DNA from: Bryobacteraceae bacterium
GTDB lineage: Bacteria; Acidobacteriota; Terriglobia; Bryobacterales; Bryobacteraceae
Length of the DNA stretch: 64,000 nt
Direction: 5' to 3'
Assembly (NCBI GenBank): GCA_026002855.1
Contig: BPGD01000001.1
Coordinates: 1,205,972-1,269,971, forward strand
Numbering within the stretch: the first letter of the stretch is position 1; every line of letters starts with the position of its first letter. The position numbers were made by a program, and so were the translations under genes. The notes beneath the pieces are model-generated. The model had not been told where the DNA came from and ran no database searches. It saw only the letters and a list, made by a program, of their open reading frames with translations. Shown one piece after another: positions 979 to 5,022 of the stretch.

Positions 979-1398
979 ATGAAAGCAATGCTGCTGACGC
1001 GCCGGGTGGAGTTTTCCGCCTCTCATGTGTGCCGCCGTCCGGACTGGTCCGAGTCGGAAAACCGGGCGCTGTTCGGCGACGAGGCCCACCCACGTGGGCA
1101 CGGCCACAACTTCGTGCTCGAGGTGACGCTGGAGGGCCAGCCGGACCCGGTGACAGGCATGGTGGTGGATTTGAAGCAGGTAAAGGCGGTCCTCGAAAAA
1201 GAGGTCATCGGCCCGATGGATCACCGCCACCTGAACGAAGAGGTGCCGCCGTTTGACCGCGTGGTGCCCACGCCGGAAAACCTCGCCGTCGAAATCTGGC
1301 GCCGGCTCGAACCACACTTTCACGGCAGCGCCGCCCGCCTGAAGGCAGTGCGGCTGTATGAAAGCGAGGATTTCTTCGTCGAATATGAAGGCCGTTGA
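979..1398 (+). CDS. 6-pyruvoyl-tetrahydropterin synthase/QueD homologue A, catalytic Cys replaced by Glu
   Basis: A 139-residue T-fold protein of the PTPS/6-carboxytetrahydropterin synthase family. The three zinc-binding histidines are present (His16 in FSASH; His41 and His43 in RGHGHN), as are the Asp-His pair (Asp81-His82 in MDHRHLN) and the pterin-anchoring Glu100 (PTPEN). The position of the catalytic Cys in FGKCNNPNGHGHN of mammalian PTPS is here Glu35 (FGDEAHPRGHGHN). Cys18 is close in sequence but does not align. I chose ATG 979 because an upstream TTG at 973 has no better ribosome site. The 3' end overlaps the next homologue by 14 bases. GTP cyclohydrolase I follows, so the pair presumably acts on dihydroneopterin triphosphate, for queuosine-type or biopterin-type products. 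Confidence 0.85.
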   Translation: MKAMLLTRRVEFSASHVCRRPDWSESENRALFGDEAHPRGHGHNFVLEVTLEGQPDPVTGMVVDLKQVKAVLEKEVIGPMDHRHLNEEVPPFDRVVPTPENLAVEIWRRLEPHFHGSAARLKAVRLYESEDFFVEYEGR

Positions 1399-1900
1399 TC
1401 CGGGGCTGCCACTCGTCCGCGTGGGCCGGCGTTACCGATTCTCGGCCTCGCACCGCCTCCACGCGCCGCAGCTTGCAGCCGAGCGCAACCGCGAGGTCTA
1501 CGGGAAGTGCAACAACCCGTACGGCCACGGACATGACTACGTGATGGACGTCGTTCTCTCCGGCCGGCTCGACCCTGCCCGGGGGCGGCTCCTGCCGCTT
1601 GAAATGCTCGACGGGTTCGTGCGCCGGGTGTGGCTTGCGCAGGTGGACCGGCGCAACCTGAACGTGGATCTTCCCGAATTCGCCGCGCTGGTACCGACCA
1701 CGGAGAACCTCGCGCTGGTGGCGGCGCGGCGCCTGAAGCAGGCCTGGCCGCACTGGTTTGCGGGCTGGCCCGCGGAGCTGGAGAAGGTAAGCATCCGGGA
1801 GACGCGCAACAACATCTTTGAAGTGTCCGCTTCGGAAGCCGAAGCCCGGGGATCAGAAAGCCATGAAATCGTCGTCGAAAGCCGTCGTCAAGGTGCTTGA
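1385..1900 (+). CDS. 6-pyruvoyl-tetrahydropterin synthase homologue B, catalytic His replaced by Arg
   Basis: A 171-residue T-fold protein very like eukaryotic PTPS. With the ATG at 1385 its residue numbers coincide with mammalian PTPS: zinc ligands His23, His48 and His50, catalytic Cys42 ([13 protein letters not shown]), Asp88 and pterin-anchoring Glu107 (PTTEN). That coincidence supports this start over the ATG at 1358. The third triad residue, His89, is Arg here (codon CGG at 1649-1651, QVDRRNLN). The extra C-terminal 25-30 residues overlap the start of folE at 1863. The upstream paralogue keeps the Asp-His pair but lacks the Cys, so the two proteins may work as one hetero-oligomer. Alone, each would be expected to be impaired in classical PTPS chemistry. 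Confidence 0.85.
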
Positions 1901-2483
1901 GCACAAGCGGGAAGAAGGCGCCATCGCCGCCCACGTGCGGGAAATTCTGCGCGAGCTGGGCGAAGACCCGAAACGCGAAGGCCTTCTCGCCACGCCCTCT
2001 CGCGCCGAGAAGGCGCTGCGGTTCCTCACCAGCGGTTACACGGCCGATATCCACAAGATCGTCAACGGCGCCATCTTCAACGAGCGCTGCGACGAGATGG
2101 TGGTCGTCAAGGACATCGAGTTCTTCTCCCTCTGCGAGCACCACCTGCTGCCGTTCTACGGGCGGGCGCATGTGGCCTACATCCCGAAGAACAAGATCAT
2201 CGGGCTGAGCAAGATCCCGCGCATCGTCGACGTTTTCGCCCGCCGGCTTCAGGTGCAGGAGCGCATGACGCAGCAGATCGCCGCCTGCCTGCAGGAGGTG
2301 CTGGATCCGCTGGGCGTGGCCGTGATTACCGAAGCGCGCCACTTCTGCATGATGATGCGCGGCGTCGAGAAACAGCACTCCTCGACCACTTCCTCGGCCA
2401 TGCTCGGCGAGTTCCGCCGCCGCAAGGAGACCCGCGACGAGTTCCTCTCCCACGTGCGTCATCAGGGCTTGGCCGGCTGGTAG
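1863..2483 (+). CDS. folE: GTP cyclohydrolase I
   Basis: A 206-residue FolE that converts GTP to 7,8-dihydroneopterin triphosphate, the first step of folate, biopterin and queuosine precursors. Typical motifs are present: [17 protein letters not shown], the zinc and active-site segment '[20 protein letters not shown]', '[18 protein letters not shown]', and '[15 protein letters not shown]' with the second Cys ligand. The ATG at 1863 (MKSSSK) lies inside the end of the upstream PTPS homologue (38-base overlap), suggesting translational coupling. An in-frame ATG at 1818 would add 15 residues that the family does not have. FolE and the two PTPS homologues form a compact pterin operon. Confidence 0.95.
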
Positions 2484-2531
2484 CGGCGCCCGGTTGCCTT
2501 GTGGAGCGGTTCGGCTACGATGGTAGGTAGC

Positions 2532-2921
2532 ATGAGCCAGGATTCCCGCCATTTCCAGGTGGCCGACCCCTTCGGCAGGACGTGGGACGTCGAGTTCCGC
2601 TGGCAGCAGAACGCGATTTCCATCCGTCACGCCGATGCGGTGGACTGCAAGTACTACATCTCCTGCGGCGACGACAGGCGCGAGCTCGTGGTGGCGCTGC
2701 GGCACCCGGATCTGCTGAAACTGGCCGCCGAGCGCGGCCGGCCGCTCACCGACGCCTGGGTGATCCGGCTGGCCGGCCATCACGTGCGGCACATGATCTC
2801 CACCTGGGAGGACATGGACAAGGTCCTGGTCACGGCGCCTTACGGCGACCTGGTCCGGCACAGCCTGGCCATCGCCGAAGAGGAGGAACGGGAACGCGAG
2901 CGGGCAGCCACCTCGCGCTGA
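2532..2921 (+). CDS. Conserved-looking protein of unknown function
   Basis: A 129-residue soluble protein with no signal peptide or membrane segment. It is rich in charged and aromatic residues (DVEFRWQQNAISIRHADAVD; YYISCGDDRRELVVALRH) and ends in an Arg/Glu-rich helix. I do not recognise the family. Codon use and GC match the neighbours, so it is very likely a real gene. It begins 48 bases after folE and could be the last gene of the pterin operon. The start is uncertain: ATG 2520 (MVGSMSQD) is equally possible. Confidence 0.65.
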   Translation: MSQDSRHFQVADPFGRTWDVEFRWQQNAISIRHADAVDCKYYISCGDDRRELVVALRHPDLLKLAAERGRPLTDAWVIRLAGHHVRHMISTWEDMDKVLVTAPYGDLVRHSLAIAEEEERERERAATSR

Positions 2922-3008
2922 TTTTCCCCGTTGCATTTCCTCCCCGTCTTTGGCGACAATTCACACTGAACGCATTCAACACCCCTGGTGGGACGAGGTG
3001 AACAGGTC

Positions 3009-3248
3009 ATGATCGAGTGTCCCGAGTGCGGCGCTGACATCGACGTGGAAGAAGACGAGCTCGACGAGGGTGAAACCATCCTCTGCGAGGAGTGCGGGCG
3101 GAGCTTTCTCGTCGCCTCCGTCGACCCGCTCGAGCTGGAGCCGGAAGACGACGACTTCGATCTCGACGAAGAATTCGACGAGGACGAGGAAGACTTCGAC
3201 GAGGAGGAGGAAGAGGATGAGGAGGAAGAAGACGAAGACTGGCGTTAG
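3009..3248 (+). CDS. LysW-like zinc-ribbon protein with a hyperacidic tail
   Basis: A 79-residue protein. Residues 1-45 form a zinc ribbon (CPEC at 4-7, CEEC at 26-29) that resembles the amino-group carrier LysW, including the 'VDPLELEPED' segment after the ribbon. The remaining ~33 residues are almost all Asp/Glu with a few Phe, ending DEDWR. LysW ends EDWGE and its terminal Glu carries the substrate. That Glu is absent here, and no lysX, lysZ or argJ-like gene is near, so a carrier role is doubtful. The ATG at 3009 is preceded by GAGGTG. The tail's GAG/GAA codons overlap the start region of the next gene. Confidence 0.75.
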   Translation: MIECPECGADIDVEEDELDEGETILCEECGRSFLVASVDPLELEPEDDDFDLDEEFDEDEEDFDEEEEEDEEEEDEDWR

Positions 3249-4004: not shown

Positions 4005-4552
4005 CGACTTTGGCCGCATTCGCAGCCGCCCTGGCGCTTCTGGGAGCGCCGGGCAAAGTGGATGTCATCAAAGCGACGGATCTTCAGGGCAAACCCGTCG
4101 AGATTCAGACTGCCGGCAAGATCACCGCGGTCATCTTCATCTCCACGCAGTGCCCGATCTCGAACGATTACAACGAGCGCATGAAGGCGCTCTACAACGA
4201 GTTTCATGGCAAGGGCGTGCAGTTCGTCTTCCTCAACGCGAACTCGACCGAGTCCTCGGCCGAGGTCGCCGAACACGCCCGCAAGCACGCGTTCCCGTTC
4301 ACGGTGTACAAGGACGTCAACAATGTCGAGGCGGACCGCTTCAGCGCCGAGTTCACACCGCATGTGTTCGTCATTGGAAAGAACTCGGAGGTCATCTATC
4401 GCGGCGCCATTGACGACTCGCGTCCCGCCGACAAGGTGACGAAGACATACCTCAAGGACGTGCTCAATGCCGCTGTGGAAGGCAAACCGTTGCCGGTCGC
4501 CGAGACCAAGGCATTCGGTTGCACCATCAAAAGGGTGAAGAAGTCCACGTGA
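4001..4552 (+). CDS. Secreted redoxin / peroxiredoxin-like thioredoxin-fold protein
   Basis: A 183-residue protein with an N-terminal hydrophobic stretch (about residues 3-15), probably exported. A thioredoxin-fold core follows with 'VIFISTQCPISNDYNERM', where a single Cys replaces the CxxC pair, as in acidobacterial AhpC/TSA-Redoxin proteins. 'FVFLNANSTES' and the cis-Pro region 'FTPHVFVI' follow. A second Cys lies near the C-terminus ('KAFGCTIKR') and could be a resolving Cys. It overlaps the upstream gene by ATGA and the downstream TlpA by GTGA, so all are translationally coupled. Confidence 0.75.
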   Translation: MTTLAAFAAALALLGAPGKVDVIKATDLQGKPVEIQTAGKITAVIFISTQCPISNDYNERMKALYNEFHGKGVQFVFLNANSTESSAEVAEHARKHAFPFTVYKDVNNVEADRFSAEFTPHVFVIGKNSEVIYRGAIDDSRPADKVTKTYLKDVLNAAVEGKPLPVAETKAFGCTIKRVKKST

Positions 4553-5022
4553 AACAGTCCATCGCCATTTTGATTCTGCTTGCAGCCGGCCTCGTCCACG
4601 CAGCGGATCTCCAGCCGATCAGCGAGGCCGGCTACCAGCGCCTGCTTGCCTCGGCGAAGGGCAAGGTGTTGGTGGTCAACTTCTGGGCCACCTGGTGCGC
4701 CCCGTGCCGGAAGGAGATGCCGGAACTGGTCGCGCTGGCGGCGAAGTACCGCGCCAAAGGGATGCAATTTGCCGCCATCGCCATTGACGAAGAGAGCGAC
4801 GCGGCCACCGTGGCCGAGTTCGTCGCGAAGACGAAGATCCCTCAGCCCGCCTACATCAAACGCTTCCAGGACGACCAGAAATTCATCTCCATGGTCGACC
4901 CCCGATGGTCCGGCGGACTGCCGTTCACCGTCGTTTATGATCGCAGCGGGCGGAAAGCGCACGTCTTCCCGGGCGAGGTGAACATCCGCGAGCTGGAACA
5001 GGTAATCCAGAAGCTGCTCTGA
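4549..5022 (+). CDS. Secreted TlpA-like thiol-disulfide oxidoreductase
   Basis: A 157-residue protein with a signal peptide (MKQSIAILILLAAGLVHAAD) and a thioredoxin-fold domain with W-C-A-P-C ('NFWATWCAPCRKEMPEL'). The cis-Pro is in 'GLPFTVVYD'. The start is GTG at 4549, overlapping the upstream stop by GTGA; an in-frame ATG at 4519 would destroy the signal peptide. It is the last gene of the five-gene run from 3009. Together with the preceding redoxin it may handle disulfides in the envelope, possibly of the two small secreted proteins encoded upstream. Confidence 0.85.
   Translation: MKQSIAILILLAAGLVHAADLQPISEAGYQRLLASAKGKVLVVNFWATWCAPCRKEMPELVALAAKYRAKGMQFAAIAIDEESDAATVAEFVAKTKIPQPAYIKRFQDDQKFISMVDPRWSGGLPFTVVYDRSGRKAHVFPGEVNIRELEQVIQKLL

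Follow-up and report, generated by a model that had tools for sequence, protein, structure and literature searches.

Within the 64,000 nucleotides of Bryobacteraceae DNA analyzed here (the window), two overlapping genes, called A and B in the following, encode homologues of PTPS that each lack a different part of the catalytic Cys-Asp-His triad. In rat PTPS, a dimer of trimers, Cys42, Glu133, and the zinc ligands are contributed by one subunit and Asp88-His89 by another; the intersubunit triad of PTPS is reportedly also the subject, by its title, of a 1995 study by Burgisser et al. The locus raises the question of whether A and B are two separate enzymes, an enzyme with a helper, or the two halves of a single active site.

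Two PTPS-type genes in front of folE

979..1398, + strand: gene A, PTPS-II-like subunit without the catalytic Cys (139 aa, by translation and alignment)
1081..1083, + strand: codon GAG of A Glu35, aligned to rat Cys42
1219..1224, + strand: codons of A Asp81-His82, aligned to rat Asp88-His89
1385..1900, + strand: gene B, PTPS-II-like subunit with Cys42 and the zinc ligands, and with Arg at the position of His89 (171 aa)
1508..1510, + strand: codon TGC of B Cys42
1646..1651, + strand: codons GAC CGG of B Asp88-Arg89
1863..2483, + strand: folE, GTP cyclohydrolase I, overlapping B in the same direction (ATG at 1863, stop at 2483)

Both proteins match PF01242 (A with 111.7 bits, B with 79.7 bits; cut-off 22.4), and HMMER alignments to rat PTPS (1b66) score 106.6 bits for A and 105.7 bits for B. 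These alignments identify the zinc ligands as His16, His41, and His43 in A and as His23, His48, and His50 in B, where Cys42, Asp88, Arg89, and Glu107 carry the mammalian numbers. The whole triad is found in neither polypeptide, since A is without the Cys and B without the His. The frames of A and B overlap by 14 bases and those of B and folE by 38 bases; the folE product was recognized by TIGR00063 (263 bits; cut-off 181.6). An initial annotation made from the letters of the DNA had given the same account of the pair (Glu35 for Cys in A with the zinc histidines and Asp-His intact, Arg89 for His in an otherwise mammalian-numbered B, overlapping frames, and folE downstream), and our translations and alignments bear it out on each of these points.

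The motif of PTPS-II is CxxxxxHGH and that of PTPS-III is ExxHGH (PMC5041015); for QueD (PTPS-I), we used CxxxHGH as the motif criterion. B possesses the PTPS-II motif, which is absent from A (EAHPRGHGH), and both A (60.8 bits) and B (37.3 bits) miss the QueD equivalog cut-off of TIGR03367 (89.25). The best solved-structure matches of both proteins are animal-type PTPS-II enzymes (rat 1b66 and human 3i2b), which they resemble in the motif of B, in the zinc ligands and glutamates, and in the position of the pair next to folE. In the rat enzyme, however, one gene holds the whole triad, whereas here the triad is divided over two genes. The genome (4.44 Mb, one contig) contains one further PF01242 copy, located 85 kb from the pair, which is of the QueD type (112.6 bits against the same TIGR03367 cut-off; motif CSRLHGH). 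Metagenome assemblies labeled Bryobacterales, Solibacter, and Acidobacteria (L035-L037) contain relatives that share 61-64% identity with B; the first two of these assemblies (L035 and L036) have the lineage Acidobacteriota, Terriglobia, Bryobacterales.

Two further genes lie downstream of folE. The protein encoded at 2499-2921 (+) matched neither Pfam nor NCBIfam models at E values up to 0.01, and the loci fetched from 13 other genomes contain relatives of it. In the small protein encoded at 2988-3248 (+), a zinc ribbon resembling LysW (PF21344, 37 bits; cut-off 27) is combined with a tail that is very acidic.

The half of the triad kept by each copy

We assessed the conservation of the pair in a phylum sample of 297 genomes, 115 of which contained a match to B. 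The tandem pair was present in 38 of the 38 genomes of the class in this sample, with a folE match in each fetched locus. Denser sampling covered 61 genomes of the bacterium's own family (58 with a match) and 61 genomes of the class. Altogether, we analyzed 114 tandem pairs of the class: 58 from the own family (f1), 35 from family f2, and 21 from other families. The f1 pairs derive from 64 listed genomes, 59 of them with a PTPS-II row and 58 with a readable pair (a run of N interrupts the B gene of G329), and a readable pair was obtained from 21 of the 23 genomes of the other families. A folE match lay within the fetched locus for 111 of the 114 pairs. The dS filter was passed by 58 of 412 close pairs, and among the 40 of these 58 that were listed, dN/dS ranged from 0.014 to 0.22 for A and from 0 to 0.35 for B, indicating purifying selection on both genes. 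Since the pair is in tandem in all 38 class genomes and both of its genes are under purifying selection, its presence reflects more than chance. The duplication behind A and B is old. Pseudogene decay of the two genes is ruled out by the low dN/dS values where these were measured.

Across the 114 pairs, A without exception kept Asp-His and B without exception kept Cys42. The complementary positions were far more variable. Cys42 was kept by A in 55 of the 114 pairs, namely in none of the 58 from f1, in 35 of 35 from f2, and in 20 of 21 from the other families; Asp-His was kept by B in 64 of 114 (24/58, 25/35, and 15/21, respectively). Among the 58 f1 pairs, position 42 of A was occupied by Ala (29), Glu (13), Ser (6), Gly (4), Asp (4), or Asn (2), while the zinc histidines of A were kept in 57 and position 133 was Glu in 56 and Asp in 2. 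A catalytic site that is dead should decay, yet the zinc histidines and Glu133 of A are conserved, which argues that the A site has some further use. In the sister families, A was complete in 55 of 56 pairs, and pairing therefore need not be obligate there.

To count changes rather than genomes, we used a pair tree built with the scored catalytic columns masked. Parsimony placed 24 changes at Cys42 of A, one each at His23 and Glu133, and none at His48, His50, Asp88, His89, or Glu107. For B, it placed 28 changes at Asp88 and 24 at His89, and none at His23, Cys42, His48, His50, Glu107, or Glu133. Treated as a two-state trait, Asp-His of B changed 21 times, with at least 21 losses, of which 12 fall within f1 and 9 elsewhere in the class. 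These data demonstrate that the positions free to change are exactly one half-triad per copy. Loss of Asp-His from B appears enriched in f1 (34/58 against 16/56 in the other pairs; Fisher p 0.0014, kinship ignored), but we do not lean on this excess, since kinship is ignored and the count by events is 12 against 9. Cys was lost from A in about two events in the class, and few independent pairs are informative on the relation of this loss to that of Asp-His from B.

Fusions, dispersed pairs, and lone copies

Complementary halves were also found in other arrangements. In five genomes of family f13, A and B are fused in one frame in the order A-B: the first half has Arg or His at position 42, has lost Glu133, and keeps Asp-His, and the second half keeps Cys and has Gln-Gly or Ser-Gly at 88-89. 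A fusion in G005 combines Lys42 and Asp-His with a second half carrying Cys and Asp-Cys. In families f33, f63, and f75, the paired copies are present at separate loci; the A-like copy has lost Cys42 and Glu133, has Tyr in place of the zinc ligand His48, and keeps Asp-His, and the Cys-bearing copy has Asp-Arg, Asp-Cys, Glu-Arg, and similar combinations, with Asp-His in G410. Five f73 genomes (L320-L324, corresponding to G461, G472, G466, G408, and G402) encode three PTPS domains in one frame, in proteins whose length, counted from the Met selected as the start, is about 405-414 aa. Domain 1 has lost all three zinc histidines and the Cys, and domain 2 has lost the Cys and His23, with Asp-His kept in both; domain 3 has the full zinc site and the Cys, and its positions 88-89 are Asp-Arg, Asp-His, Asp-His, Asp-Gly, and Gln-Met across the five genomes.

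In our trees, the Cys-bearing copies of the f33 group stand among single-copy enzymes and apart from the B clade of the class, which argues that pairing in this group arose independently. The Cys-bearing halves of G005, f13, and f73 cluster together; resolution on the A side is poor. By our count, the complementary split has at least three origins (the own family; f13, G005, and f73; the f33 group) and possibly as many as five. We excluded a mixed alignment of fusions and single-domain proteins because MAFFT aligned every single-domain sequence, along with the fusions L052 and L038, to the first half. Confident AlphaFold2 models were obtained for a two-domain f13 fusion (pLDDT 90.5, pTM 0.86) and for a three-domain f73 protein (pLDDT 90.6, pTM 0.89), and Foldseek matched one half of the f13 fusion to human and rat PTPS with a TM score of about 0.92 by target.

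Position 42 of one rat PTPS subunit meets position 89 of the next, and in the pairs studied here A42 and B89, the sites of the two substitutions highlighted by the initial annotation, co-vary. Among the f1 pairs, Arg89 of B occurred in 6 of 17 with an acidic residue at A42 and in 0 of 41 others. A Pagel test on the f1 tree, chosen after the pattern had been seen, gave LR 13.9 and p 0.008 for acidic A42 against Arg89 of B; the results were borderline for Arg at 88 or 89 (p 0.057) and for loss of Asp-His (p 0.052). All eight Asp-Arg cases of B in f1 and three named relatives pair with Glu (7) or Asp (1) in A, and on the f1 tree the Glu/Asp-Arg combination appears in the clade of the window and separately in G395 and G333. 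Independent pairs informative on acidic A42 and the states of B were too few for such a comparison. In f63 and f75, Arg89 is present in 5 of 5 B copies, and the A-like copies have loops (YG[EDS]E..) shortened by one residue; an acidic residue at position 42 was read there by hand and is ambiguous in G401. When the 81 pairs with a lost Cys were pooled, Arg89 was found in 13 of 25 with acidic and 3 of 56 with other residues (Fisher p 4.5e-6, kinship ignored). In f33, A-like copies with Ala42 are paired with B-like copies that have Arg (3), Phe (1), or His (1) at position 89. Gly42 was accompanied by Cys89 in 4 of 4 f33 pairs (L056/L057, L327/L328, L325/L326, and L329/L330), as if the cysteine had changed sides.

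Genomes with a single PTPS-II copy served as controls. All eight scored residues were kept in 50 of the 54 lone copies read; the other four belong to G329, G399 (96% complete), G425 (83%), and G431 (75%). The latter three, all from one other lineage, carry a B with broken Asp-His for which no A partner was found. A Cys-less A that is truly alone was not found among these genomes, the sole candidate being G329, whose partner B is interrupted by the run of N. Other PF01242 copies in the genomes checked were QueD-like or had unrelated motifs. Of 150 multi-copy genomes, G422 and G434 were read in part and dropped. Among the remaining 148, 59 possess both halves and no complete copy, 43 possess complete copies only, and 46 possess a broken copy beside a complete one (28 with the Cys lost, 16 with Asp-His lost, and 2 doubly dead); in these 46, pairing need not be obligate, since a complete copy is kept. 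By copies, 132 of 303 keep both halves, 94 have lost the Cys only, 75 have lost Asp-His only, and 2 have lost both, against about 24 double losses expected under independence (kinship ignored).

Both cases of a doubly dead copy beside a complete one, G047 and L038, are not complementary. L038 is a fusion from Eisenbacteria with a dead first and a complete second half, and it is a single match from outside the one phylum that our survey covered. G047 (L081; domains at 2671-3165 and 4271-4774) encodes one complete PTPS-II copy, which is followed at a distance of about 1.1 kb by an altered copy with Tyr42, His-Tyr at 88-89, and all zinc histidines kept.

The proposal of the initial annotation that Cys from B and Asp-His from A rebuild a site at their interface gains good support from these sequence comparisons: tandem pairs occur throughout the class, the half kept by each copy (Asp-His in A, Cys42 in B) is invariant, A42 and B89 co-vary, and A-B fusions are present in other families. 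A lone gene with the same substitution, which the annotation saw as telling against a split site, is encountered nowhere in the own family, but the three broken B copies for which no partner was found do occur in another lineage. The annotation also called obligate pairing of two impaired paralogues unusual for this family; this understates the matter, as the complementary pattern recurs in other lineages, and in the sister families pairing need not be obligate.

We regard it as quite improbable that A and B form independent homo-oligomers, each with a new reaction needing part of the triad. The zinc ligands and glutamates of A are nearly invariant even where its Cys is gone, as if the A site works, and its Asp-His could come from another A subunit. 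However, the fusions and the complementary losses in separate lineages speak against such independence, as do the wide drift of B at 88-89 and of A at 42 and the co-variation between A42 and B89.

Folate supply and a predicted split-site enzyme

The Cys-to-Glu exchange in A recalls PTPS-III, known from Plasmodium and the bacterial folate bypass, and A might accordingly be a folate-bypass enzyme making 6-hydroxymethyl-7,8-dihydropterin next to a separate or decaying PTPS, B. In the excerpted text of PMC2229834, a Plasmodium PTPS with Glu38 for Cys yields this product and its E38C variant does not; moreover, FolB is missing from 45 of 61 class genomes. Against this reading, which we hold to be very improbable indeed, stand the spacing of the A motif (ExxxxxHGH rather than the ExxHGH given in PMC5041015), the drift of A42 over six residues in f1, and the FolB of the window genome itself (PF02152, 98.2 bits; cut-off 31.8); on these three grounds, A was rejected as a PTPS-III. 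It would also leave unexplained the fusions and the invariant Cys of B beside a broken Asp-His. Furthermore, FolB-less class genomes mostly carry Glu in their QueD-type copy instead: within the 55 of 61 class genomes in which this motif was read (L001, L178-L206, L266-L280, and others), Glu (CExxHGH; TEPIHGH in one) was present in 35 of 41 without FolB and in 0 of 14 with FolB. Since FolB is present here and the FolB-less genomes carry Glu in the QueD-type copy, the folate supply is accounted for apart from A and B.

FolB and the QueD-type Glu are mutually exclusive, with 35 genomes having Glu only, 14 FolB only, 6 neither (G303, G310, G316, G322, G337, and G341), and none both. This distribution suggests that FolB and a PTPS-I/III hybrid have replaced each other repeatedly in the class. 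The window genome has no aromatic amino acid hydroxylase (PF00351), which 9 of the 61 class genomes encode.

That A is a regulatory or structural pseudoenzyme, activating B allosterically and donating no catalytic residues, has precedents in the AdoMetDC/prozyme pair (PMC5201418, in excerpt) and in the metformin hydrolase MetCaCb (PMC11271267, in excerpt), but we give it next to no credence, as the retention of Asp-His by A in 114 of 114 pairs would not be expected from it, nor would the persistence of Asp-His even where A has lost the zinc ligand His48 and Glu133.

The residue states, their distribution, the fusions, and the co-variation can be read directly from the DNA, and they make it quite likely that A and B are subunits of one hetero-oligomeric PTPS-type enzyme with a split active site; the formation of the complex, its stoichiometry, its activity, and its product are what we infer from them. 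The B site would be the working one: Cys42, the zinc ligands, and the glutamates that bind the pterin would be supplied by B, and the Asp-His pair activating Cys42 of B across the subunit interface would come from A. At the reciprocal site, where the zinc ligands and Glu35 of A would face Asp88-Arg89 of B, the triad is lost, and its role may be structural or one of binding at most; a salt bridge between A Glu35 and B Arg89 probably replaces the former contact between Cys42 and His89. Since the neighboring folE makes dihydroneopterin triphosphate, A and B most likely act on this compound as a PTPS, and the product would most likely be 6-pyruvoyltetrahydropterin or a close relative.

With regard to its origin, Cys42 of A would have been lost at or near the base of f1, followed by repeated decay of Asp-His in B, with the reverse taking place in other lines; by this ratchet, a homo-oligomer would have become an obligate hetero-oligomer. 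On balance, we think it probable that PTPS has taken this path several times by a neutral ratchet, which left one paralogue with the nucleophile and the metal site and the other with only Asp-His, as tandem genes, dispersed genes, two-domain fusions, or a three-domain chain (maybe a complete ring with one working site), and which rewired Cys-His to Glu-Arg at the reciprocal site.

A heteromeric or split-site PTPS was not among the top matches listed in our search of the open-licence PubMed Central literature, but related arrangements have been described for other enzymes. Trypanosomatid deoxyhypusine synthase is likewise active only when an impaired paralog and an inactive one form a hetero-oligomer; it is an unrelated enzyme, and recurrent origins and complementary residue loss are not seen in the excerpted account (PMC3663545). 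The heterohexameric MetCaCb consists of paired bacterial paralogues that are each inactive alone, but in the excerpt of PMC11271267 its metal cluster resides in one subunit only and the other is a binder, whereas in the present pair A is predicted to contribute residues to catalysis. Bimodular tunnelling-fold enzymes (uricase and GTP cyclohydrolase IB) also have two T-fold modules per chain; over its whole length, the f13 fusion model matches them weakly (Foldseek; TM about 0.34-0.46, rmsd 6.6-12.3 A), and since the fusions are PTPS by sequence, the likeness in arrangement is only suggestive.

For annotation, our findings carry the warning that most such proteins would individually be called PTPS, though neither copy alone should work, and that Cys-to-Glu in the PTPS family need not signal PTPS-III. 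If the proposed split is true, the family would offer a natural replicate series of the passage from homo-oligomeric enzymes to obligate hetero-oligomers, in which sister families show both copies whole, one half lost, or complementary halves lost, and in which fusions freeze the arrangement. Constructive neutral evolution, by duplication, degeneration, and complementation, would then become testable at single catalytic residues.
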